Source of the DNA: Verrucomicrobiota bacterium
GTDB taxonomy: Bacteria > Verrucomicrobiota > Verrucomicrobiia > Chthoniobacterales > Chthoniobacteraceae
DNA length: 64,000 bases
NCBI GenBank assembly: GCA_009885995.1
Contig: VFJQ01000013.1
Span: forward strand, 1 to 64,000
Direction: 5' to 3'
Positions 4,535-25,742 of this stretch are shown piece after piece; within the stretch, counting starts at the first letter, position 1, and the number at the start of each line of letters is the position of its first letter. Below the pieces are notes generated by a model. It saw nothing but the letters and a program-made list of their open reading frames with translations. It did no database searches and had not been told where the DNA came from. A program made the position numbers and the translations under genes.

Positions 4535-4662
4535 TGGCAGATCAAGGACCAGCACGAGTTGGAATTCATGCCCATCTTGCGGCAGGCCGCCCTCACTTAT
4601 GGAACAACAACTGGAAGCGCTTGTTCGGTGCGCCCGGGTATTTTGTGACGATGGCCTCGTAA
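4535..4662 (+). pseudogene. 3' remnant of an alginate-lyase-family gene
   Basis: Seen: translation from 4535 reads W-Q-I-K-D-Q-H-E-L-E-F-M-P-I-L-R-Q-A-A-L-T-Y-G. This aligns without gaps to the C-terminus of the intact alginate-lyase-family protein at 9466-10728 (Q-Q-I-K-E-K-H-E-x-x-L-L-P-I-F-R-Q-A-T-L-T-Y-G-G). After the Y-G the frame must shift by one base to continue as N-N-N-W-K-R-L-F-G-A-P-G-Y-F-V before a TAA at 4660-4662. Most of the gene body is missing upstream. Inferred: a decayed relative of the locus lyases, left in front of the two-component genes. Confidence 0.6.
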
Positions 4663-4691
4663 GCGGGCGCACCTTCCGTGAGGGTATTCCG

Positions 4692-6896: not shown

Positions 6897-6900
6897 GACC

Positions 6901-7524
6901 ATGCCCTCCCCGATTCGCCTCCTTTTGATCGACGACCACGCCGTAATGCGCGCCGGCCTGGCAAATATGCTCAACGCCAATCCCGCGTTTCGCGTGATCG
7001 CCGGTGCGGATGACGGCGCGAACGGGCTGGCTCTGTTTCGCGAGCATCGGCCGGACGTCACGCTGCTCGATGTCTCCATGCCTGGCGTGAGTGGTATCGA
7101 GTGCCTGCACCTCCTGCGCGCCGAGTTCCCCGATGCGCGAGTGCTGATGCTTAGCTCGTCGGATGCGGAGGAAGACATCGTGCAGGCGCTGGAGGCTGGC
7201 GCGTGCGGCTATGTGACCAAAACCGCGCGCCCCGCGGAACTCACCGCCGCCATCATCGCCGCGCACGCGGGCGAACGAGTGATCAGCCCCGCGCTCGAAC
7301 GCCGCCTCGCCGAACGCGCCTCGGGCAGCACGCTCACCGCGCGCGAAATCGAGGTGCTGCATCTTTTGAGGAAAGGGATGACCAATCCCGACATCGGCCG
7401 CCTCCTCGGCATCTCCCCGCGCACTGCCAAGGCGCACGTCGCCGCGATCCTCGAAAAGCTCGAAGCCACCGATCGCACGGAAGCGGTGACGCGCGCCTTC
7501 GAGCGGGGGTTGCTGAAGGTCTAA
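6901..7524 (+). CDS. NarL/FixJ-family response regulator with LuxR-type HTH
   Basis: A 207-aa protein. The receiver domain carries the acidic pair D11-D12 (L-L-L-I-D-D-H), phospho-acceptor Asp57 (V-T-L-L-D-V-S-M-P-G) and the conserved Lys in Y-V-T-K-T. The C-terminal LuxR helix-turn-helix reads L-T-A-R-E-I-E-V-L-H-L-L followed by N-P-D-I-G-R-L-L-G-I-S and T-A-K-A-H-V. It is 4 nt after the histidine kinase stop, so the two are a cotranscribed pair. The usual switch Thr/Ser is present as S-S-S. Inferred target: the palindromic sites at 7531 and 9384, the first of which begins 6 nt after this gene's stop. Confidence 0.92.
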   Translation: MPSPIRLLLIDDHAVMRAGLANMLNANPAFRVIAGADDGANGLALFREHRPDVTLLDVSMPGVSGIECLHLLRAEFPDARVLMLSSSDAEEDIVQALEAGACGYVTKTARPAELTAAIIAAHAGERVISPALERRLAERASGSTLTAREIEVLHLLRKGMTNPDIGRLLGISPRTAKAHVAAILEKLEATDRTEAVTRAFERGLLKV

Positions 7525-7574: not shown

Positions 7575-7630
7575 GATTTGCATCGCCGTAAGGCGGTTGC
7601 CGCATGGCCACAGTTTCCCCGTTACCCCTC

Positions 7631-9383: not shown

Positions 9384-9434
9384 CATTGGCCAACTGGCCA
9401 ATGGTGGCAGTCGGCGGTAGCGACAGTATATGAT
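9384..9434 (+). promoter_or_regulatory. palindromic operator plus promoter-like block, copy 2
   Basis: The identical 20-bp palindrome (arms CATTGGCCA / TGGCCAATG, spacer AC) lies at 9384-9403. After 17 nt comes CGACAGTATATGAT (9421-9434), where TATGAT is a good -10 candidate. It is 63 nt before the preferred start of the alginate-lyase-family gene that opens the polysaccharide operon. The only other copy found in the window is at 7531. Confidence 0.6.
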
Positions 9435-9465
9435 CTGTTTTCTGCCTTCCCCCAGAAGTCCCGCC

Positions 9466-10728
9466 ATGCATCGACTCATCATCGTCTTCCTGCTCGCTCT
9501 GACCTGTGCGAAGCTGCCCGCCGCTGAACGGAAATACACCAAAGACGTGGCGAAGCTGGCCGCTGCGCCCGCGCCGGCCCAGGACCATGCACTGCGCTAC
9601 TTCGGCGCCAGCCCGGATTCACTTGCCAAGGCAAAGGAACGCCTTGCCGCCGGGGACAAAAATCTCGCGAAGGCTTTGAAAAAGCTCATCGAGGACGCCG
9701 ATGAAGCACTGGAGGCGAAACCGGTGTCTGTGATGCAGAAGGAAAAAACTCCGCCGAGCGGCGACAAGCACGACTACATGAGCCTCGCGCCCTATTACTG
9801 GCCCGATCCGCAGTCGAAGGACGGGCAGCCTTACCTCCGCCACGATGGAAAGGTGAACCCGGAGAGCCGCGATCCCAAGGCAAACGACAGTGGGAGCGTG
9901 AAGACCATGGGCGAGACCATCGCGACGCTGGCGCTCGCGTATCACTTCACAGGCAGTGAAGCCTACGCCGCTCATGCGTCAAAGTTCGCGCGGGTGTGGT
10001 TCCTCGATCCGGCGACCCGGATGAATCCGCACTTCAAGTATGCGCAGGCGGTGCCCGGAAAGAGCGAGGGACGCGGCACGGGCATTCTCGAGGCCCGCAA
10101 TATCGCGAATGCCGCGGACTCGCTCGGACTGCTCGCGAAATCGCCATCCTGGCCGGTAGCGAATCAAAAGGCGTTGGACGCATGGCTCGGCACTTTTCTC
10201 GACTGGCTGCTCACGAGCGATGCGGGACAGGACGAGCATGCGGCGAAGAACAATCACGGCACTTTCTATGATGTGATGACCGCGCGCCTCGCCCTCTGCC
10301 TCGGGCGCAACGATGTCGCGTGGCGCATCGTCGAGGAGGCAAAGCAGCGCCGCATCGCGTTGCAAATAGCGCCTGACGGCCGGCAGCCGTTCGAACTCAG
10401 CCGCACGACATCCTTCAGCTACTCACGGTTCAATCTCGAAGCCCTCTGCGAACTCGCGACTCTTGGACAGCATGCCGGCGTGGACCTCTGGCACTTCACC
10501 ACGGACGATGGCCGAAGCATCCGCAAAGCCATCGACTATATGCTGCCCTACGCCGATGTGCCGGCCAAGGCATGGCCGCTGCAGCAGATCAAAGAAAAGC
10601 ACGAAGACGGCCTTCTCCCCATCTTTCGCCAAGCCACACTCACCTACGGTGGCCACGCCTACGAATCGATCATCGCCAAGTATCAAGATCAGCTCAGCAA
10701 GCGTTTCCAACTCCTGATTATCCGATAG
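9466..10728 (+). CDS. alginate-lyase-family (PF05426-type) secreted protein
   Basis: Start at 9466 is chosen because it begins a clean signal peptide (MHRLIIVFLLALTCAKLPAA); an in-frame ATG at 9430 would overlap the -10 candidate. The 420-aa product has the alpha/alpha-toroid lyase signatures Y-Y-W-P-D-P with Y-L-R-H-D-G-x-x-N-P-E, then R-M-N-P-H-F-x-Y-A-Q-A-V-P-G with G-R-G-T-G, then K-N-N-H-G and S-F-S-Y-S-R-F-N-L. Residues about 22-38 (R-K-Y-T-K-D-V-A-K-L-A-A-A-P-A-P-A) resemble the N-terminus of the SGNH hydrolase at 15905 rather than other lyases. First gene of the operon. Likely a polysaccharide lyase acting on a uronate polymer; exact substrate not readable. Confidence 0.85.
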   Translation: MHRLIIVFLLALTCAKLPAAERKYTKDVAKLAAAPAPAQDHALRYFGASPDSLAKAKERLAAGDKNLAKALKKLIEDADEALEAKPVSVMQKEKTPPSGDKHDYMSLAPYYWPDPQSKDGQPYLRHDGKVNPESRDPKANDSGSVKTMGETIATLALAYHFTGSEAYAAHASKFARVWFLDPATRMNPHFKYAQAVPGKSEGRGTGILEARNIANAADSLGLLAKSPSWPVANQKALDAWLGTFLDWLLTSDAGQDEHAAKNNHGTFYDVMTARLALCLGRNDVAWRIVEEAKQRRIALQIAPDGRQPFELSRTTSFSYSRFNLEALCELATLGQHAGVDLWHFTTDDGRSIRKAIDYMLPYADVPAKAWPLQQIKEKHEDGLLPIFRQATLTYGGHAYESIIAKYQDQLSKRFQLLIIR

Positions 10729-10756: not shown

Positions 10757-12505
10757 ATGAAATACACCCTCATTCTAACCCTCCTCGCTTCTTCATTTGC
10801 ACTCGGTCCTTCGTCCTTTGCGGAGGACACCAAACCCAATGTCCTCTTCATCGCCGTCGATGACATGCGGCCCGATCTGGGCTGCTACGGAAACAAGCTG
10901 ATCAAGACCCCGAACATCGACCGCATCGCGGCACGCGGCATCGTATTCAACAAGGCCTATGTCTCGCAGTCGGTGTGCAGCCCCTCGCGCACCGCGATCA
11001 TGACCGGCCTGCGTCCGGACGTGACCAAGGTCTGGGATCTCGAGACGCACTTCCGTGTCGCGCAGCCGGACTGCATCACGCTGCCGCAGCACTTTAAGGC
11101 GAACGGCTATCACACGGCGGCGTTGAGCAAAGTGTATCATGCCGGTCTTGAAGATGGCCGCTCGTGGAATGAGCCGCACTGGTATCCGAAAGGTCGCGCG
11201 GTGGACACCGATCCGGTGGACTGGACGAAGCAGATCGTCGCGAGGCATGACGTGGACGTCGAGGAATTCAGTGCGCCGGAGGCGGGCCCGGAGCGAAAGA
11301 GCGGCAAGAGCGCGAAGAAAGGTCCTTCGTTTGAAGTCAGCCCGAAACAAGACGATCAACTCCCCGATGGAGCGACGGCCGCCGAGGCGGTAAAGCGTCT
11401 CGCCGCGCTGAAGTCGAAGAGTGAGCCGTTCTTTCTCGCCGTCGGCTTCCTCAAGCCGCATCTGCCCTTCGTCGCACCGAAGAAATACTGGGATCTCTAC
11501 GATCCGAACAAGATCCCTCTGCCGGCAATCGATCATCTGCCCAAAGGCGCGCCTGAGTTCGCCGGTCACAACAACAGCGAGCTTCACGCCTACCCTGGAG
11601 TGCCGAAGGAGAATCCCATCCCCGCGGATTTCGCGAAGCAACTCCGCCACGGCTACTATGCCTGCATCAGCTACACCGATGCACAGATCGGCAAGGTGCT
11701 CGACGCGCTGGAGAAAGAAGGACTCGCCGACAACACCATCATCGTGCTCTGGGGCGATCACGGCTGGCAGCTCGGAGACCACGGGCTGTGGCACAAGCAC
11801 ACGAACTTTGAACTCGCCGCCCGCGCCCCATTGCTCATCAGCGTGCCAAAGTCAAAGACCGCGGGAAAGAAATGCGACGCGACCGTGGAGTTCGTGGACG
11901 TCTATCCCACGCTGGCAGATCTTTGCGGACTGCCCGCTCCGACCGGCCTCACCGGCGCGAGCTTGAAACCTTTCATCGAGAACCCCGCAGCTCCCGCGAA
12001 GAAAGTCGCGATCAGCCAATACCCCAGGAAAGCCCCCGAAGGTCCGGTCATGGGTTACAGCATCCGCGACGCACGCTGGCGGGCCACCTTCTGGCGCGAA
12101 CGCGACGGCGCGAAGATCGTCGCCGCGGAACTTTACGACGAACAAAACGATCCCAACGAGACGGTGAGTCTCGCCGACAAACCCGAGCACAAAGCCCTGC
12201 TCGAAACGCTGGCGAAAAACCTGCCGCCCGTGGGCTCCTCATCTCCAGCCGAAGGTGCCAAGTCCCAAGGCAAGGGCAAAAAGGGGAAGGCCGCCGCTCC
12301 CGCGTCCGCCGCAGCGTTGGGCGGCGACGATGAGCGGAACGCACGCTTCGACAAACTCGACGTGGGGAAGACCGGCAAGCTGAGACGTGAGTATTACACC
12401 ACCCACCAGTCCGACGCCGCAGCCGCCGACGAACGCTTCACCAAATGGGACAAGGACAAAGATGGGTTCCTTACCCGCGAGGAGTTCCTGAAGATGGGTA
12501 AGTAG
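10757..12505 (+). CDS. secreted sulfatase (iduronate-2-sulfatase-like) with C-terminal EF-hands
   Basis: A 582-aa protein with a signal peptide. The sulfatase core has V-D-D-M-R-P-D-L-G-C-Y-G metal-binding residues and the C-x-P-S-R motif with Cys74 (Q-S-V-C-S-P-S-R-T), the residue normally oxidised to formylglycine. K-P-H-L-P-F and W-G-D-H-G-W-Q-L-G-D-H complete the active-site set, as in family S1 iduronate-sulfatase-like enzymes. After a low-complexity K/G/A linker (about 492-520) the tail holds two EF-hand-like loops; the second, D-K-D-K-D-G-F-L-T-R-E-E-F, is canonical. Start 28 nt after the lyase stop. Removes sulfate esters from the polymer or oligomers; no formylglycine-generating enzyme is seen nearby. 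Confidence 0.88.
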   Translation: MKYTLILTLLASSFALGPSSFAEDTKPNVLFIAVDDMRPDLGCYGNKLIKTPNIDRIAARGIVFNKAYVSQSVCSPSRTAIMTGLRPDVTKVWDLETHFRVAQPDCITLPQHFKANGYHTAALSKVYHAGLEDGRSWNEPHWYPKGRAVDTDPVDWTKQIVARHDVDVEEFSAPEAGPERKSGKSAKKGPSFEVSPKQDDQLPDGATAAEAVKRLAALKSKSEPFFLAVGFLKPHLPFVAPKKYWDLYDPNKIPLPAIDHLPKGAPEFAGHNNSELHAYPGVPKENPIPADFAKQLRHGYYACISYTDAQIGKVLDALEKEGLADNTIIVLWGDHGWQLGDHGLWHKHTNFELAARAPLLISVPKSKTAGKKCDATVEFVDVYPTLADLCGLPAPTGLTGASLKPFIENPAAPAKKVAISQYPRKAPEGPVMGYSIRDARWRATFWRERDGAKIVAAELYDEQNDPNETVSLADKPEHKALLETLAKNLPPVGSSSPAEGAKSQGKGKKGKAAAPASAAALGGDDERNARFDKLDVGKTGKLRREYYTTHQSDAAAADERFTKWDKDKDGFLTREEFLKMGK

Positions 12506-12526: not shown

Positions 12527-14140
12527 ATGACCTCCCGCCGCGACTTCATCGTTGCCACCTTTGCTGCCGCTGCATTTCCGCGGACCGGTTTTGCCGTGGA
12601 TGACGATTCGGCTGACATCTGCATCTATGGCGGCACCGCCAGTGGCGTGATGGCGGCAGTCACGGCGGTGAAGCAGGGGCGCACGGCGGTGATCGTTGAG
12701 CCGAGTCGCTGGCTCGGGGGCATGACGGGCGGGGGCTTGAGCCATGTGGACTGGGGGCGCGAGAAGGCGGTGGGCGGCTCGGCGTTGAGCATCCTGTCGA
12801 AGAACTACGACGATGCGCAGTATCGGCAGGTGTTTCAGGATCTGGTGATGAAATACCGCATCCGCGTGATCTACGAACATCGCGTGAGCGCGGTGCAGAA
12901 GGACGGCACGAGCATCCGTAGCATCACGCTCGATCATGCGCCGCCGGATGCGCTGGGGTGCCCAGTGGCGACTCCGACGAAGGCGGGCGCGATGACAATC
13001 ACCGCGCGGGTTTTCATCGACTGCTCGTATGAGGGCGACCTCATGGCGCGGGCCGGGGTGAGCTACACCTGGGGTCGCGAGAGCCGCGATGAGTATGGCG
13101 AATCGCTCGCCGGTGTGCGGCCAAATCTCGCTGTGTATGACATCGACCCGTATGTGACGCCGGGCGATGAAAAGAGCGGCCTGCTGCCCTTTGTGCAGGA
13201 CATGAAAGCGCAGCCGGAAGGCAGCGCGGACCGGCTCACGATGGGTTACGGCTTTCGCTGGAAGTTCAGCAGGGACGCCGACCGCATCCCAATGGATCCG
13301 CCGGAGAACTATGATCCGAAGCAGTTCGAGCTTTACCGTCGTGGCTTCAAAAACAAGGCCGGCATCGACATGGGCCGCCGCATGAAGGGCAAGCTGAATG
13401 CCTTTGAGCCCGCAGGCGGACGCATCCATTCCATCGGCCAGGGAAATCTCGCGCGGGCGCTGCTCGCGCCGACGAACTATGGCAGCAACGCCGCCTATCC
13501 CGATGGCGACTACGCGACTCGCGCCCGTATTTGGAAGGCCGACCAGGAATTCATGCGCGGCATGACGCACTTCCTCCGCACCGATGACTCCGTGCCGGAT
13601 AAGCTCAAGCAACTCGCCACCGAACTTGGCTTTCAGCGCGGCATCTTCGACGACACGCACGGCTGGCCGCATCAGCTTTACGTCCGCGAGGCGCGCCGCA
13701 TGAATTCCGACTATGTCGTGACCCAAAAGGATCTCGAAGGCACCACCGATCCCGAAGACAGCGTCGGCCTCGCCTCTTACGGCGTGGATGACTGGCCGTA
13801 TGCAACGTATGCGCACGAGGGCAAAGTGGCGCTCTATGGTGGGGAGTTCTCCATGCTCTACCTCGATGAGAGGCACGAAGGCATTTACAAGATCCCGTAT
13901 CGCGCCATCACGCCCAAGCAGAGCGAATGCACGAACCTCCTCGTGCCCGTCTGCGTCTCCGCCAGCCACATCGCCATGACCTCCATTCGCATGGAGCCGG
14001 TGTGGATGATCCTCGGCGAATCCGCCGGCGTCGCCGCCGCGATGGCCGTGACCGAAAAGATCCCCGTGCAACAAGTCACCTACAGCAAACTCGATCCGAA
14101 GCTCATCGCGCTGAAGCAACGGCTGTCCCGCCCAGCGTAG
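12527..14140 (+). CDS. FAD-dependent oxidoreductase (FAD_oxidored family), Tat-exported
   Basis: A 537-aa protein opening with a Tat-type signal (T-S-R-R-D-F-I-V-A-T-F-A-A-A-A-F). The dinucleotide fold follows as I-C-I-Y-G-G-T-A-S-G-V-M-A-A-V with E-P-S-R-W-L-G-G-M-T-G-G-G-L, typical of the PF12831 family. Further conserved blocks include F-I-D-C-S-Y-E-G-D-L and, near the end, S-A-S-H-I-A-M-T-S-I-R-M-E-P-V. It starts 21 nt after the sulfatase. Family members are frequent in polysaccharide loci of the PVC group, but their substrates are poorly known; oxidation of a sugar or oligosaccharide is an inference. Confidence 0.85.
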   Translation: MTSRRDFIVATFAAAAFPRTGFAVDDDSADICIYGGTASGVMAAVTAVKQGRTAVIVEPSRWLGGMTGGGLSHVDWGREKAVGGSALSILSKNYDDAQYRQVFQDLVMKYRIRVIYEHRVSAVQKDGTSIRSITLDHAPPDALGCPVATPTKAGAMTITARVFIDCSYEGDLMARAGVSYTWGRESRDEYGESLAGVRPNLAVYDIDPYVTPGDEKSGLLPFVQDMKAQPEGSADRLTMGYGFRWKFSRDADRIPMDPPENYDPKQFELYRRGFKNKAGIDMGRRMKGKLNAFEPAGGRIHSIGQGNLARALLAPTNYGSNAAYPDGDYATRARIWKADQEFMRGMTHFLRTDDSVPDKLKQLATELGFQRGIFDDTHGWPHQLYVREARRMNSDYVVTQKDLEGTTDPEDSVGLASYGVDDWPYATYAHEGKVALYGGEFSMLYLDERHEGIYKIPYRAITPKQSECTNLLVPVCVSASHIAMTSIRMEPVWMILGESAGVAAAMAVTEKIPVQQVTYSKLDPKLIALKQRLSRPA

Positions 14141-14190: not shown

Positions 14191-15882
14191 ATGAAACACG
14201 CTCTCGCACTTTTCACCGCGCTGCTCTGCGCATGTTCGGCCTTCGCCGCGTCGTCACCATCGAAACCCAACATCATCTTCATCCTCGCCGATGACCTCGG
14301 GTTCGCCGAAATCGGTGCGAACGGAGCGGATCACTACAAGACGCCCAACATCGACTCGCTGGCCAAGACCGGCGTTCGGTTCAGCCACTTCTACACGGCT
14401 CCGCTCTGCGGCCCTTCGCGCGCCCTCATTCTCACCGGACGTTATGGATTCCGCTCGGGTGCCGTTACCCAGGATGCTTGCGGTTCCATCATCCGCACCG
14501 GCGAGAAAGCCGAAGTCATGATTCCCACGGTCCTGAAGAAGGCCGGTTACACCACCGCGATGATCGGCAAATGGGGCCAGCTCCTGCCCTCGGGCGACGC
14601 GGCGGAATGGGGCTTCGATCACATGATGACTTTCAAGGCCAGCGGCATCTATTGGAACAAGGCGGCAGCAGCGGCTTGGGTGAAGAAGTATGAACTCGCC
14701 GGCGACAAAGACGGCGAAGGCGGAGTCCGCGCCAACCCCGGTCCTTACAATATCGATGCGAAGAAGCTGACGATGTCGGACACGGAATACATGCCCGATT
14801 TGATGCACAAGGACGCCATGGCTTTCCTCAACGCGAACAAGGCCAAACCGTTCTTCCTCTATTACTCGCTGGCGCAAGTGCATTCGCAAATCCTGCCCAC
14901 GCCTGACAGCGCGCCGCCCGCTCCCGGCACGGACGCCGCCGCCCGTTACGTCCAGCTATACAACGACAACATCACTTACATGGACAAACTCGTCGGCAAG
15001 CTGCTCGCGGAATTGGACCGCCTTAAACTTCGTGAGAACACGGTCATCTTCTTCATGGGTGACAACGGCACCGCCAAGGCGAATGCGGACCGTGCCACTA
15101 TCGGCGGTCGTCGCATCATCGGACAAAAGGGTGGCATGGAAGAAGGCGGCGGGCTCGTCCCCTTTGTCGTCAGTTGGAAGGGCGTGACCCCTGCAAACAA
15201 GCTGAATGAAAATTTGTCCGATGCATCCGACCTGCTCCCCACCTTCGCCGAGATCGCGGGTGCGCCGTTGCTTGAGAATCTCATCATCGACGGCAAGAGC
15301 CTGCTCCCACAAATCAAAGGCGACACCAAGTCCCCACGCACCTGGGCTTTCACCCAACTCGGAGAAAACTTTCACGTGCGTGAAGCGGGGTGGAAACTCA
15401 ACCAGGCTGGCCAGCTCTTCGACATGAAGAACGCGCCGTTTGAAGAAATTCCGGTTCCTGCTGATTCCAAAGACGCTGCTGCCACCGCTGCTCGCCAACG
15501 TCTCAGCGGAGTCCTCGCCGAACTCAACCCCGCGGCCGGTTTCAAAGGCGAGGGCAGCGGGCGCGGTGACAAGACCAAGAAAGAGAAAAAGAAAGCGGCT
15601 GCCGAGCCTGCGCCGGCTGCGCCTGCTGCCAAAGCGAATTCCGAATCCACGTCCAAGCCAGCGCCCAGTTCGGTCGCACCCGCAGACGCGGCGACCGCGG
15701 AACGTGCCGCGAAATTCGACAAGCTCGACAAGGGAAAAGTTGGAAAGCTCACTCGCGAGGAATACCGCAGCCGCCAATCTGATCCCGAAGCCGCAGCGCT
15801 CCGCTTCGATAAGCTCGATGTCAACAAGGACGGCGTGATGACGCCCGAGGAGTATCTGGCTGGCGGCAAGAAATCGAAATAG
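14191..15882 (+). CDS. secreted sulfatase with C-terminal EF-hands (second copy)
   Basis: Start at 14191 gives a signal peptide (MKHALALFTALLCACSAFAA). The core shows I-L-A-D-D-L-G-F, the C-x-P-S-R motif with Cys73 (A-P-L-C-G-P-S-R), I-G-K-W-G-Q in place of the common G-K-W-H, and F-F-M-G-D-N-G-T. It belongs to a different S1 subfamily from the first sulfatase (arylsulfatase / N-acetylgalactosamine-6-sulfatase-like). A lysine/alanine/proline linker (about 450-510) leads to paired EF-hand-like loops: D-K-G-K-V-G-K-L-T-R-E-E-Y (degenerate) and D-V-N-K-D-G-V-M-T-P-E-E-Y. The tail is clearly related to that of the 10757 sulfatase. Gap of 50 nt to the upstream gene. Confidence 0.87.
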   Translation: MKHALALFTALLCACSAFAASSPSKPNIIFILADDLGFAEIGANGADHYKTPNIDSLAKTGVRFSHFYTAPLCGPSRALILTGRYGFRSGAVTQDACGSIIRTGEKAEVMIPTVLKKAGYTTAMIGKWGQLLPSGDAAEWGFDHMMTFKASGIYWNKAAAAAWVKKYELAGDKDGEGGVRANPGPYNIDAKKLTMSDTEYMPDLMHKDAMAFLNANKAKPFFLYYSLAQVHSQILPTPDSAPPAPGTDAAARYVQLYNDNITYMDKLVGKLLAELDRLKLRENTVIFFMGDNGTAKANADRATIGGRRIIGQKGGMEEGGGLVPFVVSWKGVTPANKLNENLSDASDLLPTFAEIAGAPLLENLIIDGKSLLPQIKGDTKSPRTWAFTQLGENFHVREAGWKLNQAGQLFDMKNAPFEEIPVPADSKDAAATAARQRLSGVLAELNPAAGFKGEGSGRGDKTKKEKKKAAAEPAPAAPAAKANSESTSKPAPSSVAPADAATAERAAKFDKLDKGKVGKLTREEYRSRQSDPEAAALRFDKLDVNKDGVMTPEEYLAGGKKSK

Positions 15883-15904: not shown

Positions 15905-16636
15905 ATGCACCTGCCACAAACCATCCCCGCAAACGCCGCGATCTTTGCAGCCATACTTGTCGCCGCTTGCGCGCTTCACGGCGCGGAGCCGAGCCCATCA
16001 CCGGCAAAGCGGAAATATACCGCCGACGTGGCCAAGTGGGCCGCCGCGCCGGCACCGGCACCCGGAGGAATCCTGATGGTGGGAAGCAGCATCTTCCGCA
16101 AGTGGACGAGCGCTGCCGAGGACCTTGCTCCGCTACCGGTGACGAACCGCGGCTTCGGCGGTTCCAAAACGGAAGACCAACTGTTTTTCTTTGATCAGAT
16201 CGTGCCTTCTTCGAGCGCTGCGCTCGTCGTCTGGTATTGCGGCAGCAACGACGTCAACGCGAAGAGGACGCCCGAATCCATCCTGAACAACACCAAGGAA
16301 TGGATCGCGCGCACGCGTGCTGCGCTTCCGCAAACTCGCATCTTGATTGTGTCCGTGATCCGTGTGCCGCAGAAGCGTGAGAAGGGACTGCTGACCCAGG
16401 TGGATGCGGTCAACAAGGGGTTGCTCCAACTGGCCGGATCAATCCCAAATGTCACCTATGCAGACGTGAACCCGGCTTTGGAAACCGCTGCCGGCGAGCC
16501 CGTGGCCGAGTGCTATGTGGCGGATAAACTCCACCTCACGCCCGAGGGTTACCGCCGGATGACCTCGGTCTTGAGGTCGTTGATCGAAAAGAACTGGAAA
16601 GCATCTCTGGTTTCCAAAACCCCAAGCCGCCCATAG
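15905..16636 (+). CDS. SGNH/GDSL hydrolase, secreted
   Basis: A 243-aa protein. An N-terminal hydrophobic signal is followed by block I (M-V-G-S-S-I-F, candidate nucleophile Ser62), block II (N-R-G-F-G-G-S), block III (Y-C-G-S-N-D-V-N) and block V (D207-K-L-H210-L-T-P-E-G). This is a complete SGNH catalytic set. Members of this type often deacylate or deacetylate carbohydrates, which fits the locus. Starts 22 nt after the second sulfatase and 30 nt before the GH2 fusion. Its leader R-K-Y-T-A-D-V-A-K-W-A-A-A-P-A-P-A resembles the one in the lyase at 9466. Confidence 0.85.
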   Translation: MHLPQTIPANAAIFAAILVAACALHGAEPSPSPAKRKYTADVAKWAAAPAPAPGGILMVGSSIFRKWTSAAEDLAPLPVTNRGFGGSKTEDQLFFFDQIVPSSSAALVVWYCGSNDVNAKRTPESILNNTKEWIARTRAALPQTRILIVSVIRVPQKREKGLLTQVDAVNKGLLQLAGSIPNVTYADVNPALETAAGEPVAECYVADKLHLTPEGYRRMTSVLRSLIEKNWKASLVSKTPSRP

Positions 16637-16666: not shown

Positions 16667-19600
16667 ATGAATAACGTCTCACGAATCCTCATTGTTATCC
16701 TCGCCATTACCTGCGCGGGAAACCTCACCGCCGCCGAGTCACGCCAGCGACTCGCCGAAGGCTGGGAGCATTACCAAGGCTCGCTCGGCAGCACTTGGGA
16801 AGTGTGGCGCGGCGATACGGCGAGCGACAATGTCGCGTGGTCGCCGGTGACGCTGCCTCATTGCTTTAATGGGCGCGATGCGGTGGACCCGGACGCGCGT
16901 TACTACCAAGGGCCGGGCTGGTATCGCACGCGGCTGAAGATCGCGAATCCCTTTCCGAATGGGCGCACGCTGTTGCACTTCGATGGTGCGGGGCAGAAGT
17001 CGCAAGTGTTTGTTTACACCGACAAGGTCGGCGAGCACGTCGGCGGCTATGATGAGTGGACGGTGGACATCACCAACGCCGCGGCGAAGGCGCTGAAGAA
17101 TGAAGCCTTCAAGGGCGAGGTGCCACTCGCGGTGATGTGCGATAACTCGCGCGATGCGGAGGCGATCCCGTCCGACCTCAGCGACTTCAATCGCTACGGC
17201 GGGCTCTATCGCCACGTGCGTCTCGTGTATGTCCCGGCGCTCTCGGTGGAGCGCGTGCATGTGGAGGCGAAGGTGGAAGGCAGTAAGGCGACGGTGAAGG
17301 TGCGGTCGCGGCTCGCAAACCCGACGGCGCTGAAAGACGAAATCGAACTCGCGATCGAAGTGCGCGATGGGAAGGACAAGGTCATCCACACGGCGGCGCA
17401 GAAGCTTGTTCCGTGGTCGGGCGTGAAAGAGATCGGGGCGTTTGAGATTGCGACACCCGCGCGTTGGTCGCCGACGACGCCGGCGCTGTATCGCTGTGTG
17501 GTGACGTTGAAATCGAAACACGGCGAACAGAAGACCACCGAGCGCTTCGGCGTGCGTTCGTTCGAGTGGGTCGAGCACGGGCCGTTCAAGCTGAACGGCG
17601 AGCGGCTCCTGCTGCGCGGCACGCATTACCACGAAGATCACGCGGGCGTTGCGGCGGCGGTGCCGGATGACGTGGTCCGTAAGACGCTGACGATGATCAA
17701 GGAGATGGGCGCGAACTTCGTGCGCCTCGGGCATTACCAACAGGCGCCGCTGGTGCTCGATCTGTGCGATGAACTCGGCCTGCTCGTGTGGGAGGAAGTG
17801 CCGTGGTGCCGTGGCGGGCTGGGTGGCGAACGTTACCAGCAGCAGACTCGCGACATGCTGCGGGCCTTGATCGATCAACATTACAACCACCCATCGGTGA
17901 TCCTATGGGGACTGGGCAACGAGAACGACTGGCCCGGCGACTTTGAGGTCTTCGACAAAGACAAGATCCGCGCCTTAATGACCGATCTGAACACGCTCTC
18001 GCATGAGCTGGATCCCTCTCGCCCGACGTGCATTCGCCGCTGCGATTTCTGCAAGGACATCGTCGATGTCTATGCGCCGAGCATCTGGGCGGGCTGGTAT
18101 TCCGGGCGTTACACCGAGTATCGCGCGGCGTCGGAGAAGGCGCTGAAGGACACGAAGCATTTCTTCCACGCCGAGTGGGGTGGCGACAGCCATGCGCGGC
18201 GCTTTTCCGAAGAGCCGGAGAAGATGATGGAGAAGGTCGCGACTGGCCAGGGCACGGCGGAGAAGGGCAAGGCTTACAAGGGCTCGGGCGGCAAGGTGCG
18301 CATGTCGAAGGACGGCGATTGGTCGGAGAGTTACATGTGCAACCTCTTCGACTGGCATCTGAAGGAGCAGGAGGAGATGCCGTGGCTCACCGGCAGCGCT
18401 CAGTGGATTTTCAAGGACTTCGCCACGCCGCTGCGGCCGGAGAATCCGGTGCCGCGCGTGAACCAGAAAGGCGTGATCGAGCGCGACGGCACGCCGAAGG
18501 AGAGCTTCTACGTCTTCCAGAGCTACTGGGCGGAGAAGCCGATGCTCCGGCTCTTCGGCCACAACTGGCCGGTGCGCTGGGGTGAGGCCGGCGAGGAGAA
18601 GGAGATCCGCGTTTATTCGAATTGCCCCGAGGCGGAGTTATTCGTGAACGGTAAGTCCGCCGGCGTGAAGCAACGCAAGAGCGCCGACTTTCCCGCCGCT
18701 GGCCTGCGCTGGAACGTGAAACTCAACGAAGGCGAAAACAAGCTGCGGGCCGTCGGCAAGCGCGATGGAGTCGAAGTCAGCGATGAGATCACCGTGGGTT
18801 ACCAGACCAAGAAGTGGGGCAAACCCGCGAAGATGAAGCTGGAGGAGATCGCGCAGAAGGACGGCATCGCGACGATGGAAGTGCGGATGCTCGATTCGAA
18901 CGACGTGGAGTGCCTCGACGCCGCCAATGTCGTGCGCTTCGGTCTGACTGGCGATGGCCGCTTGCTCGACAATCTCGGCACCTCCACCGGCGCGCGGGTC
19001 GTGCAGCTCTACAACGGCCGCGCGCAGATCAAGGCCGAGATCACGAACTACAAGGTGTGCGTCTCCGTATCTTCGGAAGGCCGGAAGCCGCAGTTCAAAT
19101 ACATCGCCGACAACCGCGCCCACACGACCGAATCGAAGACAACGAAGCCCGCGAAGGCCACCGCCGAAACGAAAGCCCCCGCGAAAGCCTCCGCGCCGAA
19201 ACTCACACTCGATGTCGCCGCGATCGATCGCGAACGCATCCTGAGAGCCGCCGCCGCCGCGCTGAAGCAGGAGCCCGTTACCATCACCGCCTTTCCCGCA
19301 AAGCTCAGCCAGGGCGGACCGAACGACTTCTACTCGAACGGCGACTACTGGTGGCCCGACCCGAGCAAGCCCGACGGCCTGCCCTACCTCCGCCGCGACG
19401 GGGAATCGAATCCCGAGAACTTTGCGCAGCATCGCCTCGTCGTGAAGGCGCTGCGTGACTCCGTGGCCGCGCTCGCGGCCGCCTACAAGATCACGGGCGA
19501 GGACCGCTACGTGACCAAGGCCGCGAAACTGCTGCGCAGTTTCTTCCTCGATCCGAAGACGCGGATGAATCCGAACCTCGATTTTGCGCAGGCCATTCCC

Positions 19601-20302
19601 GGCGTCTCACCCGGACGCGGCATCGGCATCATCGACGCACTTCACCTGATCGAAATCCCGTCCGCGGTGCGTGCGATGGAGAAGTCGAAAGTTTTCCCGA
19701 GCGGCATGGGTGCGGAGCTGCGCGGTTGGTTCCGCCAGCTCGCCGAGTGGATGACCACGAGCAAGAACGGCGCGGAGGAAGCGCGCGCGAAGAACAACCA
19801 CGCCGTCGCCTTCCACCTCCAGCTCGCCGTGTATGCCGACTTCATCGGCGACGAGGAAAAGCTCGCGCGCTGCCGCAAGGAATACAAAGAAGTCTTCGTG
19901 GCAAAGCAAATGGCCTTGGACGGCGGCTTCCCGCTCGAACTCGAGCGCACCAAGCCTTACGGCTACTCGATCTTCCAACTCGATAACATGACCACGCTCT
20001 GCCATGTGCTGAGCACCGAGCAGGATAACTTGTGGACCTACGAGCTGCTCGATGGCCGCGGCATCCGCAAAGCCATCGCGTTCCTCTATCCTTTCCTCGC
20101 CGACAAATCGAAGTGGACGCTCAAGCCCGACGTGCAGGCGTGGGAAGGCTGGCCCGCGCGGCAGCCAAATCTGATCTTCGGCGGCCTCGCGCTCGGGGAA
20201 CAAAAGTATCTCGACCTCTGGCAAAAGCTCCCCGCCGATCCGACCGACCCTGAAGTGCAGCGCAACATCGGCATCACCCAGCCGGTGCTGTGGGTGAAGT
20301 AA
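16667..20302 (+). CDS. GH2 glycosidase fused to a C-terminal alginate-lyase-family domain
   Basis: A 1211-aa protein with a signal peptide (M-N-N-V-S-R-I-L-I-V-I-L-A-I-T-C-A). Residues about 30-830 form a GH2 enzyme: sugar-binding and immunoglobulin-like domains, then a TIM barrel with acid/base Glu419 (L-G-N-E-N-D-W) and nucleophile Glu503 (F-H-A-E-W-G-G), followed by DUF4982-like beta domains. An Ala/Lys/Pro linker (about 822-845) joins a complete alginate-lyase-type domain (about 850-1205) with Y-W-W-P-D-P, Y-L-R-R-D-G, R-M-N-P-N-L-D-F-A-Q-A-I-P-G, G-R-G-I-G and K-N-N-H-A. No stop or frameshift separates them. A beta-galactosidase/glucuronidase-like activity joined to a lyase is the likely role; substrates unproven. 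Confidence 0.88.
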   Translation: MNNVSRILIVILAITCAGNLTAAESRQRLAEGWEHYQGSLGSTWEVWRGDTASDNVAWSPVTLPHCFNGRDAVDPDARYYQGPGWYRTRLKIANPFPNGRTLLHFDGAGQKSQVFVYTDKVGEHVGGYDEWTVDITNAAAKALKNEAFKGEVPLAVMCDNSRDAEAIPSDLSDFNRYGGLYRHVRLVYVPALSVERVHVEAKVEGSKATVKVRSRLANPTALKDEIELAIEVRDGKDKVIHTAAQKLVPWSGVKEIGAFEIATPARWSPTTPALYRCVVTLKSKHGEQKTTERFGVRSFEWVEHGPFKLNGERLLLRGTHYHEDHAGVAAAVPDDVVRKTLTMIKEMGANFVRLGHYQQAPLVLDLCDELGLLVWEEVPWCRGGLGGERYQQQTRDMLRALIDQHYNHPSVILWGLGNENDWPGDFEVFDKDKIRALMTDLNTLSHELDPSRPTCIRRCDFCKDIVDVYAPSIWAGWYSGRYTEYRAASEKALKDTKHFFHAEWGGDSHARRFSEEPEKMMEKVATGQGTAEKGKAYKGSGGKVRMSKDGDWSESYMCNLFDWHLKEQEEMPWLTGSAQWIFKDFATPLRPENPVPRVNQKGVIERDGTPKESFYVFQSYWAEKPMLRLFGHNWPVRWGEAGEEKEIRVYSNCPEAELFVNGKSAGVKQRKSADFPAAGLRWNVKLNEGENKLRAVGKRDGVEVSDEITVGYQTKKWGKPAKMKLEEIAQKDGIATMEVRMLDSNDVECLDAANVVRFGLTGDGRLLDNLGTSTGARVVQLYNGRAQIKAEITNYKVCVSVSSEGRKPQFKYIADNRAHTTESKTTKPAKATAETKAPAKASAPKLTLDVAAIDRERILRAAAAALKQEPVTITAFPAKLSQGGPNDFYSNGDYWWPDPSKPDGLPYLRRDGESNPENFAQHRLVVKALRDSVAALAAAYKITGEDRYVTKAAKLLRSFFLDPKTRMNPNLDFAQAIPGVSPGRGIGIIDALHLIEIPSAVRAMEKSKVFPSGMGAELRGWFRQLAEWMTTSKNGAEEARAKNNHAVAFHLQLAVYADFIGDEEKLARCRKEYKEVFVAKQMALDGGFPLELERTKPYGYSIFQLDNMTTLCHVLSTEQDNLWTYELLDGRGIRKAIAFLYPFLADKSKWTLKPDVQAWEGWPARQPNLIFGGLALGEQKYLDLWQKLPADPTDPEVQRNIGITQPVLWVK

Positions 20303-20317
20303 GAAACGACGTTCCCC

Positions 20318-23300
20318 ATGAATCGCCTCATCCAACTTTCGATTACCATCCTGGTCGCTGCGCTTTTAACCGTGGCGACACCGGCGCGGGCCGATGAATA
20401 CGACACGCTTCGCGCTTCACGGCTGAACACCCTTCTCGCCAGTGCGTCGAGCGTGACGAGTGTGGCCAACCGGGCGAATCTCTATTGGCTGGGCAATGGC
20501 ACCACGCAGGTGGCGATGAACACGACTCCATCGGTCGCGACCCCTTACCTCTGGAGCGATCTGACGTTTGGCTCCAATGCGGGGAACATCTCCTCTACTT
20601 ACAAACGCTTGCAAGCGATGGCGCTGGCTTGGGCGCAGCCGGGGAACTCGCTCAACGGCAATGCCAGTCTCGCCACCGCAATCTCCAACGGTCTCGATTG
20701 GATGAATGCGAATGTCTATAAAGCAACCGGTGGACAGTATGAGAACTGGTATGACTGGGAGGTCACCGCACCGCAGGCGCTCGATGACACTATGGTGCTG
20801 TTTTATCCAGCACTGACTACCACCCAGATCGCCAACAACTGCGATGCAATCGACAACTATGGGCCGACCAGCGCGAATGCGACGCCCTACTTTACCTGGA
20901 ATGCCCTCACCGGAGCCAACACGGTTGACGTGGTGCTGGTCACGGCGATTCGCGGCATCCTCGGCAAGAACAGCACCAAGCTCACGGACGCCAAGGTCAA
21001 TCTGAGCAAAGTGTTTCCCTTCGCCACCAGCGGCGACGGCTTCCATGCCGATGGCTCCTTTGTCTTTCATGCCAACATCGCCTACACGGGTCACTACGGT
21101 ATCACACAGTTGGAAGGTGTTGCGACGATTGTAAATCTGCTGCAAGGCTCGACGTGGGCGATCACGGACCCGGAGCTGGCCAATGTCTATGACTGGATCA
21201 CCAACGGATTCGAACCGCTGATCTACAACGGCGCGATGATGGACATGGTGCGCGGCCGCGCCGCTTCGTGGTCGTCTTCCACGGAGTATGACAAAGGTGC
21301 CGAGGCCATCGAAGCCATCCGCCAGATTGCGCTGTTTGCGCCTCCCGCCACGGCTGCGGCGTTGACGGCGTTTGCGGATTCACCTCGCCTCGCCTCGGGG
21401 CAGTTTCATTTTGCTGGCATGGATCGCGTGGTGGCTCTTCGTAGTGGTTTTGGTTTCGGACTGAGCATGTCGTCGAGCCGCATCGCGAACTTCGAGAACC
21501 TCTTTAGCACTTCGAATCTCAAAGGCTGGTTCACGGGCGATGGCATGACCTATCTGTATGTCGGCGCGACGGACACACAGTTCACGGACACCTTTTGGCC
21601 TACAGTGGACTACTACCATCTGCCGGGCACGACCGTGGAGCAGGGTTATGTGCCGCAGCCGAGCACGACAGATCAAAGCTGGGTCGGTGGTGCGCAAGTC
21701 GCGGGCACGTATGGTGCCGCCGGGATGTCGCTGCACCCAGCGGCGAGTCCGACTGCAAGCTCGACGCTGAATGGGAAAAAATCCTGGTTCATGCTCGACA
21801 ACAAGATCGTCTGTCTCGGCGCGGGGATCGCCTGCACGACGGGCAACGCGGTGGATACGACGGTGGAGAATCGCCGACTGGGTGCAGCGCCGACGAGCAA
21901 CCTCACCGTGAATGGCGTGCAGTATCCGCCCACTGCTGGCTGGAGTGCGTCGCTTTCGGGCTCGACTTGGTGCTCACTCGATGGCGTTGGCGGCTACTAC
22001 TTCCCGAGCAGCACGAGCAGCTTGAGCGCATCGTTCGTGGCGAGGTCCGGCTCGTGGACGCAGATCCGCCCGGATGACTCCGATACCACGGTGTATAGCG
22101 AGAACTATCTGAAGCTGTGGTTCAATCACGGCGTCGCGCCCTCGAACGCCAGCTACGCCTATGTGCTTCTGCCCGGCATGAACGCGAGCGGCACGAGTGC
22201 TTACGCGCAGAATCCGGATGTGACCGTGGTCGCGAACACGACGAATATTCAGGCTGTGAAAAGCGTCGACCTCGGCGTGGTGGGTGCGAATTTTTGGGCG
22301 ACCGGCGGCGGCACGGCGGACTGGATCACTGTGAACAAGCGGGCGTCGGTGGTCACGCTGGAGACTTACAACGGCATCACCGTCGGCATCTCCGATCCGA
22401 CGCAGAGCATCACTACGCCCGTCCCCGTCACCTTGAACCGTGCGGCTTTGAGCACTGTGGCGGCTGATGCGGGCATCACGGTCACACAACTCACGCCGAA
22501 CATCGTTTTCACCGTGAACGTGAATGCGGCGAAGGGGAAAACTTTCCAGGTGTCCTTCGCTCAGGCGGCTCAGCCGCCCGTGATCACGAGCCTCGGCACG
22601 GCGGGCGGCAATCAAGGAACGACGTTCAGTTATCAGATCACCGCGAGCAATGCTCCGGCCAGCTACGGAGCGAACGGACTGCCCGCGGGTTTGAGCGTGG
22701 ACCCGGTCACCGGCATCATCAGCGGCACGCCAGCGCAAACGGGAACCTTCAACGCAACGTTCAGCGCAACGAATCCCGGCGGCACCGGCAGCGCGACATT
22801 GTCGCTCACGATCCTGCCGCCCGCACCGGCGATCACGAGCGTGCTGAGTTTGATCGGCATCAATGGGCGCGCGCTTGCCTATCAAATCACCGCCACGAAC
22901 AACCCGGTGAGTTATGGTGCCAGTGGATTGCCCGCGGGACTGAGCGTGAACCCGGCGACCGGTGTGATCACGGGAACGCCGGGCGGAATGACGATTCCGA
23001 CGAATGTCACGATCACGGCGACCAATTCAGGCGGCACGACTTCGGCGACACTCGTGATTACGGATGCGACGGCGTCTTTTCCAGCCACCGGCACCTGGAT
23101 TTGCCCCGCGAATGTCACCGCGATCCAGATCGAGTGCTGGGGCGGTGGCGGCGCGGGCGGCAGCGCGCAGCGGACAGGCGGCGCGGGAAGCGTGCAATAC
23201 GGCGGTGGCGGCGCGGGCGGCGCATATGCGAAAGCGAATGCTCACGCCGTCGTGCCTGGCGCCACTTACTACATCAATGTAGGTGCAGGCGGCGTGAACA

Positions 23301-24379
23301 CGTCATCGACCACCGGCACGACCGTTGCGGGGGGTGATTCGTGGTTCAATGGGATCGACTCCGCCTCCAGTTCCATCATCGCGAAAGGTGGTGCCGGGGG
23401 CGCGAGCGCCATCGGCAACACCAGCACCACGCGCTACGGCGCCGGCGGCGCGGGCACCGCAACGGCGAGCGTGGGCGATGTCGTGTATGCAGGCGGCAGC
23501 GGTGCAGTCGGTTCCGCGGGCGGGGCCGGCGGGGGCGGTAGCAGCGCGGGCACGAGCAGTATCGGCACGACCACGACGACCAACCTCGGTGCCACCGCAC
23601 CCGCAGGCGGCGGCAGTGGCGGCACAGGCACGGTCACAGGTTCCGTCAGCGGCGCCGCAGGCACCGCACCTGGCGGTGGAGGCGGTGGATCACGAGACTC
23701 CAGTAACGTCGTCATTGCTGGTGGCGCGGGAGGCGCGGGCAAGGTCGTGCTCACCGTGGGCAAGACCGCAAGCATCATCACCCTCGGGAATCTCGCGCAT
23801 CACTACGACGGCAGCGCCAAGTCAGCGACCGCCATCACCAATCCCACGATCACCGGCACGATCAGCTTCACCTACAACGGCTCATCCACCACTCCGAGTG
23901 CCGCAGGCAGTTACACCGTCGTCGCCTCGATCAACGACACCAATTACAGCGGCACCGCCACCGGCACGCTCGTCATCGCCGAGGCTGTCACCGCGTGGCG
24001 TCAGCTATTTTTCCTGACGACCGCGAACACCGGCGCGGCCGCCGACTCCGCCGATCCCGACGGCGATGGCTGGTCGAATGCAGAGGAGTATCTGTTCGGA
24101 ACCTTTCCCACAACACCCGGTAGCACGTCTCTGCTCGGCACGTCATCATCCGGCAACGACATCACGCTGACCTTCATCGCCCGACAGGCGACCGGCACCG
24201 GCTACACCGGACTGGTTCGGCATTATGCCTTGGAATTCACGACTGACGTTTCCAACGCGGCCTCATGGGCACCACTGGCCGGTTACTCCGACATCCTGGG
24301 TGCAGGTCAAACCGTGACGATCACGCAGCCCGCATCCGGACCAAACAAATTCTACAAGCTGAAAGCCTGGCTCGAATGA
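20318..24379 (+). CDS. PL8-family polysaccharide lyase with long C-terminal modular tail
   Basis: A 1353-aa secreted protein. Residues about 25-720 match polysaccharide lyase family 8 (hyaluronate, chondroitin AC and xanthan lyases): N-W-Y-D-W-E, catalytic Asn201 (T-G-A-N-T-V-D), His251 and Tyr260 (D-G-S-F-V-F-H ... Y-T-G-H-Y-G), and Arg312/Arg314 (M-V-R-G-R-A). Spacings agree with characterised PL8 enzymes. The tail has two putative Ig modules (G-L-P-A-G-L-S-V-x-P-x-T-G-x-I-x-G-T-P), a glycine-rich region (about 930-1145), an MBG-like module (Y-D-G-S-A-K-S-A-T-A) and a D-P-D-G-D-G-W-S-N-A-E-E-Y calcium-type C-terminal segment. It is 15 nt after the GH2 fusion. Cleaves uronate-containing polymers by beta-elimination. 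Confidence 0.88.
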   Translation: MNRLIQLSITILVAALLTVATPARADEYDTLRASRLNTLLASASSVTSVANRANLYWLGNGTTQVAMNTTPSVATPYLWSDLTFGSNAGNISSTYKRLQAMALAWAQPGNSLNGNASLATAISNGLDWMNANVYKATGGQYENWYDWEVTAPQALDDTMVLFYPALTTTQIANNCDAIDNYGPTSANATPYFTWNALTGANTVDVVLVTAIRGILGKNSTKLTDAKVNLSKVFPFATSGDGFHADGSFVFHANIAYTGHYGITQLEGVATIVNLLQGSTWAITDPELANVYDWITNGFEPLIYNGAMMDMVRGRAASWSSSTEYDKGAEAIEAIRQIALFAPPATAAALTAFADSPRLASGQFHFAGMDRVVALRSGFGFGLSMSSSRIANFENLFSTSNLKGWFTGDGMTYLYVGATDTQFTDTFWPTVDYYHLPGTTVEQGYVPQPSTTDQSWVGGAQVAGTYGAAGMSLHPAASPTASSTLNGKKSWFMLDNKIVCLGAGIACTTGNAVDTTVENRRLGAAPTSNLTVNGVQYPPTAGWSASLSGSTWCSLDGVGGYYFPSSTSSLSASFVARSGSWTQIRPDDSDTTVYSENYLKLWFNHGVAPSNASYAYVLLPGMNASGTSAYAQNPDVTVVANTTNIQAVKSVDLGVVGANFWATGGGTADWITVNKRASVVTLETYNGITVGISDPTQSITTPVPVTLNRAALSTVAADAGITVTQLTPNIVFTVNVNAAKGKTFQVSFAQAAQPPVITSLGTAGGNQGTTFSYQITASNAPASYGANGLPAGLSVDPVTGIISGTPAQTGTFNATFSATNPGGTGSATLSLTILPPAPAITSVLSLIGINGRALAYQITATNNPVSYGASGLPAGLSVNPATGVITGTPGGMTIPTNVTITATNSGGTTSATLVITDATASFPATGTWICPANVTAIQIECWGGGGAGGSAQRTGGAGSVQYGGGGAGGAYAKANAHAVVPGATYYINVGAGGVNTSSTTGTTVAGGDSWFNGIDSASSSIIAKGGAGGASAIGNTSTTRYGAGGAGTATASVGDVVYAGGSGAVGSAGGAGGGGSSAGTSSIGTTTTTNLGATAPAGGGSGGTGTVTGSVSGAAGTAPGGGGGGSRDSSNVVIAGGAGGAGKVVLTVGKTASIITLGNLAHHYDGSAKSATAITNPTITGTISFTYNGSSTTPSAAGSYTVVASINDTNYSGTATGTLVIAEAVTAWRQLFFLTTANTGAAADSADPDGDGWSNAEEYLFGTFPTTPGSTSLLGTSSSGNDITLTFIARQATGTGYTGLVRHYALEFTTDVSNAASWAPLAGYSDILGAGQTVTITQPASGPNKFYKLKAWLE

Positions 24380-24419: not shown

Positions 24420-25742
24420 ATGAACGCCCCCATCATCACGACCCGCTATCGCTGGGTTATCTGTGCGCTGCTCTTCTTTGCGGCGGCGATTAACTATATC
24501 GACCGGCAGGTCATTGGGATCCTCAAGCCGGCCTTGCAGGAGCAATTCCACTTCGATGAACGCGCCTATGCGGCCATCGTGTTTAGCTTTCAGGCGGCTT
24601 ATGCGATTGGATTGCTGGCCGCGGGTCGCGTCATGGACCACATCGGGGTGCGGTGGGGATTTGCGCTGGCGGTGATCATCTGGAGTTTCGGCGCGATGGC
24701 TCACGCGCTGGCCGATTGGTTCCCGTGGCTGTCACTGCCGACCGTCTCGATCGATCCTCCGGCCATCGTGTTGCTCGGCGGTGCGACGGCGGGCTTTGCC
24801 ATCGCGCGACTCGTGCTCGGTCTCGGGGAGGCGGGAAACTTTCCCGCATCCATTAAGACCGTCGCCGAGTGGTTCCCAAAAAAGGAACGCGCGCTTGCGA
24901 CGGGCATTTTCAATTCCGGAACCAATATCGGCGCGCTGCTGACGCCCGTGCTCGTGCCGTGGATCACCCTGCGCTGGGGCTGGCAGTGGGCCTTCATCGC
25001 CACGGGTCTGCTGGGTTTTGCATGGGTCGTGTGGTGGCTGATGTCTTACCGCTCTCCAGAACTGCACCCCCGCGTCTCCGCCGCCGAACTGGCGCACATC
25101 CAAAGCGACCCGCCCGAGTCCTCCGTGCGTATTCCGTGGCGCCGGCTCTTTCCGCACCGGCAGTTGTGGGCTTTTGCCTTGGGTAAGTTCATGACCGATC
25201 CGATCTGGTGGCTCTATCTCTTCTGGGTGCCGGATTTTTTGAAACGCAATCACGGTCTCGACCTCAAGACGATGGGTCTGCCGCTGGTCGTCATCTACCT
25301 CGTGGCCGATGTCGGCAGTATCGGCGGCGGCTGGATTTCCTCGCATCTGCTCAAACGCGGCTGGACGCCGAACTCGGCGCGCAAGACCGCGATGCTCGTC
25401 TGTGCGCTGGCGGTCGTGCCGATCATCTTCGCGGCGAAGGCCAGCAATCTCTGGGTCGCCGTGGGGCTCGTCTCGCTCGCTGCCGCCGCGCATCAAGGGT
25501 GGTCGGCGAATCTCTTCACGCTCACGAGCGACATGTTTCCGAAACAGGCGGTCGGCTCGGTCACCGGCATCGGTGGCATGGCGGGCTCGATCGGAGGCAT
25601 GCTCATCGCGCTCGTCGTCGGCGAGATTCTGCAGAAGACTGGGAGCTATGTCCCCATCTTCCTCATCGCAGGTTCGGCGTATCTCGCGGCGCTGCTTGTC
25701 ATCCATATTCTTGCGCCAAGGCTTGAGCCGGCTCGGGTCTGA
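24420..25742 (+). CDS. MFS permease, ACS family, hexuronate transporter-like (ExuT type)
   Basis: A 440-aa protein with about 12 hydrophobic segments. The N-terminus (N-Y-I-D-R-Q-V-I-G-I-L-K-P), the block G-L-G-E-A-G-N-F-P-A-S-I-K-T-V-A-E-W-F-P and K-E-R-A-L-A-T-G-I-F-N-S-G-T-N-I-G-A resemble ExuT-like anion:cation symporters. Last gene of the lyase operon, 40 nt after PL8. Import of free hexuronates or unsaturated uronates released outside the cell is the obvious role. Family assignment is secure; the exact sugar is inferred from context. Confidence 0.87.
   Translation: MNAPIITTRYRWVICALLFFAAAINYIDRQVIGILKPALQEQFHFDERAYAAIVFSFQAAYAIGLLAAGRVMDHIGVRWGFALAVIIWSFGAMAHALADWFPWLSLPTVSIDPPAIVLLGGATAGFAIARLVLGLGEAGNFPASIKTVAEWFPKKERALATGIFNSGTNIGALLTPVLVPWITLRWGWQWAFIATGLLGFAWVVWWLMSYRSPELHPRVSAAELAHIQSDPPESSVRIPWRRLFPHRQLWAFALGKFMTDPIWWLYLFWVPDFLKRNHGLDLKTMGLPLVVIYLVADVGSIGGGWISSHLLKRGWTPNSARKTAMLVCALAVVPIIFAAKASNLWVAVGLVSLAAAAHQGWSANLFTLTSDMFPKQAVGSVTGIGGMAGSIGGMLIALVVGEILQKTGSYVPIFLIAGSAYLAALLVIHILAPRLEPARV

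Follow-up and report, generated by a model that had tools for sequence, protein, structure and literature searches.

We analyzed a stretch of 64,000 nucleotides from a Verrucomicrobiota bacterium (contig VFJQ01000013.1 of assembly GCA_009885995.1; 91% complete, 181 contigs), hereafter called the window. At positions 16667..20302 of its forward strand lies one unbroken frame of 1211 codons, encoding a single chain of 1211 amino acids in which an enzyme of glycoside hydrolase (GH) family GH2 is followed by a lyase domain resembling polysaccharide lyase (PL) family PL38. This fusion gene belongs to an operon of eight same-direction genes, separated by gaps of 28, 21, 53, 22, 30, 15 and 40 bases, in the order stand-alone lyase (lyase A), sulfatase, flavin adenine dinucleotide (FAD) oxidoreductase, sulfatase, GDSL esterase, fusion, PL8 lyase and major facilitator superfamily (MFS) transporter. 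An earlier, sequence-only reading had described the uninterrupted frame, a complete GH2 enzyme with Glu419 and Glu503, an Ala/Lys/Pro linker, a complete lyase domain and a separate lyase paralogue in the same operon, and each of these was found again in our analysis.

One frame with two sets of active-site residues

The chain comprises, in order, an N-terminal hydrophobic leader, the GH2 part, a linker and the PL38-like domain, designated lyase B (Table 1). The GH2 part carries PF02837 (residues 68-190), PF00703 (194-297), PF02836 (302-621) and DUF4982 (642-704), and PF05426 matches residues 881-1150 with 257 bits (cut-off 22.2). The GC content at codon position 3 is 0.83 in the GH2 part, 0.81 in the linker and 0.84 in the lyase. 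When the window gene was compared with 20 complete fused relatives from other assemblies, differences at codon positions 1, 2 and 3 amounted to 0.182, 0.130 and 0.458 in the GH2 part (15693 codon pairs) and to 0.180, 0.135 and 0.453 in the lyase (7252 pairs). Both halves are thus conserved as coding sequence equally well; the linker drifts fast and keeps its frame (0.486, 0.322 and 0.607; 624 pairs). An assembly or frameshift artefact, for which the division of the assembly into 181 contigs could speak, has a negligible probability in our view, as 20 complete fused frames stand in other assemblies and the codon signal is continuous across the junction. As far as sequence goes, these two results refute it, and a stop or frameshift at about 19140-19220, where the earlier reading had placed its critical check, finds no support, the 20 frames spanning this very junction.

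As presented in Table 1, both catalytic Glu residues and an N-x-K motif, which we take to be the uronate motif of beta-glucuronidases, are kept in all fused and unfused GH2 rows, the unfused ones including L083, the window's own piece. The GH2 domains, the catalytic Glu pair and the N-x-K motif expected of a GH2 beta-glucuronidase are present. Over the whole GH2 part, the nearest solved chains were 6d7j (1011 bits), deposited as a beta-glucuronidase, and 6d1p (983 bits), the next chain reaching 251 bits. We assume these two to be PmGUS of Parabacteroides merdae and BuGUS-3 of Bacteroides uniformis, respectively. Both align with the entire GH2 part, catalytic Glu pair and N-x-K motif included, and differ from the fusion in having 830 and 814 residues and no lyase domain. 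This kinship and the motif suggest a specificity of the beta-glucuronidase type. The NCBIfam equivalog cut-offs (GalA, LacZ4, PRK10150 and others) were not reached by the GH2 part (298 of 900, 284 of 950 and 163 of 544 bits), and we therefore claim no named equivalog for it. This null result, the many relatives named beta-galactosidase in source records and the occurrence of such names among related solved GH2 chains would also suit a beta-galacturonidase or beta-galactosidase; however, 6d7j and 6d1p are by far the nearest solved chains and the N-x-K motif is present in all rows, and we regard this alternative as improbable.

Sequence, predicted fold and active-site residues all mark lyase B as PL38-like. 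BoPL38 (Bacteroides ovatus CP926; 8bdq and the 9fh/9fi series) and BACOVA_01668 (3nfv, 3nnb) share its fold over the whole domain; unlike lyase B, both were solved without a partner domain and are named alginate lyases. Y91, D108, Q173, N242, H243, R292 and Y298 of BoPL38 were all matched in lyase B (the first three counted by hand), and the active-site residues Q173, N242, H243, R292 and Y298 are matched in 99 of 99 rows. Position 297 of BoPL38 is His, and Gly or Ala stands there in 98 of the 99 lyase rows. By analogy with BoPL38, lyase activity is predicted for this domain. The sequence-only reading had called it alginate-lyase-family; the family holds and is refined to PL38-like, as PL38 enzymes are reported to act not on alginate alone but also on glucuronan, hyaluronan and chondroitin (accessible parts of PMC13027841 and PMC11790493). 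We also considered a pseudo-lyase that binds an acidic glycan and anchors the fused enzyme, as very diverse partners (GH2, GH27, GH29, PF14592 and PF14099) would be expected of a binding module. However, all 99 rows retain the catalytic residues, the lyase shows differences at the first two codon positions as rarely as the GH2 part, 39 of 81 related frames are lyases standing alone, and P0135 and P0141 carry GH88 in the same chain, making such a role very doubtful.

Recurrence of the union and partners of the lyase

A scan of genome contigs gave 227 lyase relatives, of which 80 loci were kept. Their 81 lyase frames comprised 39 lyases alone, 25 GH2-fused frames (20 complete), 15 PL38-fused frames and 2 with another N-terminal sequence. 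The same GH2 gene stood directly beside the lyase, on the same strand, in 15 of 39 unfused lyase frames with at least 2.6 kb upstream, and across all adjacent cases the stop-to-stop frames were -222 to +4 bases apart. In a phylum sample of 387 genomes (E<=1e-60 for the lyase, E<=1e-120 for the GH2 part), we found the lyase in 26, the GH2 part in 13 and both in 6; with the window genome excluded, the lyase was present in 5 of 12 GH2 genomes (p 4e-4, uncorrected for genome kinship). Fused frames in this sample came from the window genome, G088, G091 and G035, the last as a piece with GH2-type tail domains and the lyase. On a tree of 99 lyase rows, the label GH2-B (GH2 fused to lyase B) needs 13 changes, at least 6 of them forced by starred branches; on a tree of 96 proteins, for which 30 of 110 A-B and 36 of 87 GH2-B proteins were drawn plus all 30 others, it needs 14, with at least 8 forced. 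These changes indicate that the GH2-lyase union was gained or lost many times over, the two being indistinguishable here.

Two protein searches returned 836 and 623 matches, and the best 120 of each gave 218 different proteins. Among these 218, 104 join lyase A to lyase B, 90 join GH2 to B, 2 hold A, GH2 and B, 21 hold B with another partner and 1 has B followed by A. Among the best 120 of the 623, where candidates had a length of at least about 794 residues, GH2 domains occur in 81 (the window's fusion protein included), GH27 in 20, of which two also have GH29, GH29 without GH27 in 1 and PF05426 alone in 18. P0130 (order lyase A-GH2-lyase B) and P0132, of 1586 and 1589 amino acids, unite in a single chain the modules lyase A, GH2 and lyase B, which are split over two genes in the window. 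Further orders are GH2-B-GH88 (P0135 and P0141), GH2-B-GH18-ThuA (P0164) and, with the lyase at the N-terminus, B-GH27 (P0146), B-GH29-GH27 (P0158) and B-GH29 (P0209). A PF14592 (Chondroitinase B) domain precedes lyase B in L061:8561-11089 and L085:106-2586, and a PF14099 polysaccharide lyase domain follows it in L091:667-3036 and L092:1318-3417.

By family, the partners remove beta-glucuronic acid (GH2), alpha-galactose (GH27), alpha-fucose (GH29) and unsaturated glucuronic acid (GH88), which fits a branched sulfated uronate polymer. We tentatively put forward the possibility that the PL38-type lyase is a plug-in module, repeatedly joined to exo-glycosidases of GH2, GH27, GH29 and GH88 and to other lyases. 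Verrucomicrobiota and Planctomycetota would then feed on a sulfated polysaccharide bearing fucose and galactose, of which each one-chain enzyme would trim a different branch while all would cut its one uronate backbone. If all fused partners serve the same polymer, they would offer a readable hint at its branches, from which the substrate could be guessed.

Genes around the fusion

The features of the locus are collected in Table 1. The C-x-P-S-R motif is intact in both sulfatases; the second opens with ATG at 14191, and its structure search was begun from 14194. The same window encodes, at 53151-56198 on the reverse strand, a Ser/Thr kinase with a C-terminal FGE-sulfatase (sulfatase-modifying factor) domain. 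PF05426 has only two matches in the assembly, lyase A and the fusion. PL8- and PL38-type lyases together with sulfatases, one mark of a glycosaminoglycan utilisation locus, are present here; the unsaturated uronyl hydrolase (GH88/GH105) also expected of such a locus has no PF07470 match in the 91%-complete assembly. Among related loci, whose flanks differ in length so that all neighbour counts are lower bounds, sulfatase genes neighbour 17 of 25 fused, 14 of 18 GH2-adjacent and 7 of 38 other frames; the corresponding counts are 3, 5 and 0 for PL8 and 7, 2 and 2 for lyase A. The FAD oxidoreductase was near none of the 81 related frames at a 100-bit bar, and L022 holds an end piece resembling it (94 residues, 55%). 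The histidine kinase and response regulator encoded upstream are a possible regulator of the operon. Elsewhere in the window, 37485-42956 on the reverse strand encodes a UvrA-like protein of 1823 amino acids with repeated domains.

Table 1. Positions of the fusion gene's parts and residues and of other genes in the window.
Feature	Position	Strand	Remarks
Signal-peptide-like N-terminus, residues 1-23	16667..16735	+	judged by eye
GH2 enzyme part	16733..19096	+	residues 23-810 align to 27-823 of 6d7j
Glu419, expected acid/base, GNEND	17921..17923	+	26/26 fused, 17/17 unfused GH2 rows
Glu503, expected nucleophile, HAEWGG	18173..18175	+	26/26 fused, 17/17 unfused GH2 rows
Asn599-Gln600-Lys601, N-x-K motif	18461..18469	+	26/26 fused, 17/17 unfused GH2 rows
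Linker, residues 813-848	19103..19210	+	Ala/Lys/Pro/Thr-rich
PL38-like lyase domain B, residues 849-1211	19211..20302	+	
Gln975 (Q173 of BoPL38)	19589..19591	+	hand-counted on alignment; 99/99 rows
Asn1044-His1045 (N242, H243 of BoPL38)	19796..19801	+	99/99 rows
Arg1094 (R292 of BoPL38)	19946..19948	+	99/99 rows
Tyr1100 (Y298, catalytic Tyr of BoPL38)	19964..19966	+	99/99 rows
Stand-alone PL38-like lyase A	9430..10728	+	PF05426, 288 bits; in relatives fused to B or GH2-B
S1 sulfatase, EF-hand tail	10757..12505	+	CSPSR; nearest solved 6hhm arylsulfatase, then iduronate-2-sulfatase
FAD-dependent oxidoreductase	12527..14140	+	PF12831
S1 sulfatase, EF-hand-like tail	14191..15882	+	CGPSR; nearest solved 6bia sulfatase, then iota-carrageenan sulfatase 6b0k
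GDSL esterase	15905..16636	+	
PL8 lyase, Ig/MBG/Gly-rich tail	20318..24379	+	nearest solved: xanthan lyases
MFS transporter	24420..25742	+	
YHYH-domain protein	7604-9202	+	directly upstream of operon
Histidine kinase	4428-6896		upstream of operon
LuxR-type response regulator	6682-7524		upstream of operon
KDPG aldolase	49549-50184		sole match in assembly

Proposed action and comparison with known fusions

Overall, the fusion protein is a single chain whose GH2 enzyme, with an active site of the beta-glucuronidase type, and whose PL38-like lyase, with a complete set of active-site residues, probably attack one acidic sulfated polysaccharide outside the cell, stripping its terminal beta-glucuronic acid and cutting it by beta-elimination. 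We infer that the protein is secreted and that one polymer is the target of both its parts. The idea that one protein removes a side sugar and cleaves the backbone, already voiced by the sequence-only reading, would thus remain the best reading; the processive action it had added is unsupported, as the stretch matching residues 812-855 (44 residues in the window) ranges in length from 21 to 76 residues across the fused relatives. In the proposed mechanism, the two sulfatases and the GDSL esterase would uncover the glycan first. GH2 hydrolases are exo-acting as a rule, and the GH2 part would remove glucuronic acid capping chains or branches by a retaining mechanism, with E419 as acid/base, E503 as nucleophile and N599 and K601 holding the carboxylate. 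The lyase part, with H1045 and Y1100 as base and acid and with N1044, R1094 and Q975, would cut 4-linked uronate bonds to leave 4,5-unsaturated ends. Action on such ends is not expected of a beta-glucuronidase, so the GH2 part would most likely work on native chain ends or branches. The stand-alone PL38-like lyase and PL8 may cut further, and the MFS protein may import the small products.

Several results weigh against such a joint action. The non-conserved length of the linker argues against a fixed geometry, and the full-length AlphaFold2 model was poor (predicted local distance difference test, pLDDT, 53.3; predicted template modeling score, pTM, 0.37) and uninformative on the arrangement of the parts. 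No such GH2 gene adjoined the lyase in 24 of the 39 unfused frames with upstream room, and 7 of the 13 GH2 genomes were without the lyase at E<=1e-60, so that neither part needs the other. GH88/GH105 (PF07470; control positive in 3 of 14 genomes), UxaC and KduI had no match in the 91%-complete assembly, leaving the fate of both expected products unclear. PmGUS is described as very poor and slow on p-nitrophenyl (pNP) glucuronide in the available excerpt of PMC6351562, whose authors consider that GUS enzymes with C-terminal domains prefer larger glucuronide-bearing polysaccharides. Both parts might also be active but independent, the fusion fixing only their ratio and joint secretion with no gain from one chain. 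The 21 to 76 residues of the junction stretch, the 13 label changes (at least 6 forced) and the many relatives with both genes side by side yet unfused are in line with this, but the fusion is seen repeatedly across the tree, and also with several partners, which is more than a single neutral accident would produce, and we find such independence rather unlikely.

The sequence-only reading knew of no described hydrolase-lyase fusion of this order, yet hydrolase-lyase chains as such are already in print: the accessible portion of PMC13235733 lists CelAly (GH5+PL31) and, from a survey of 13 PL families without PL38, the types PL14+GH9, PL7+GH16 and PL7+GH16+PL6. As described there, CelAly-type enzymes, like the window fusion, have a GH and a PL catalytic domain within a single chain; they pair a glucan hydrolase with an alginate lyase, address two target polymers and carry binding modules. 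In contrast, the combination in the window fusion is not one of these four, no binding module is recognised in it by Pfam, and neither GH2 nor PL38 is among the types and families given in that portion of the survey. No GH2+PL38 chain was named in the titles and abstract starts of the open-access literature matches listed, and within these matches the pairing of GH2 with a PL38-like lyase is a new combination. Among PL38 enzymes, compared here by description, Amuc_0778 of Akkermansia muciniphila and RiPL38 of Roseihalotalea indica act on hyaluronan/chondroitin-type glycans, according to the available parts of PMC11790493 and PMC13027841. RiPL38 is likewise described there as a two-domain chain from a locus with PL8, its partner being a 3keto-disac_hyd domain and not GH2. 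If the proposed action is correct, the window protein would offer a ready-made two-activity enzyme for acidic glycans and would carry hydrolase-lyase fusions beyond glucanase/alginate-lyase pairs to a glucuronidase joined to PL38.
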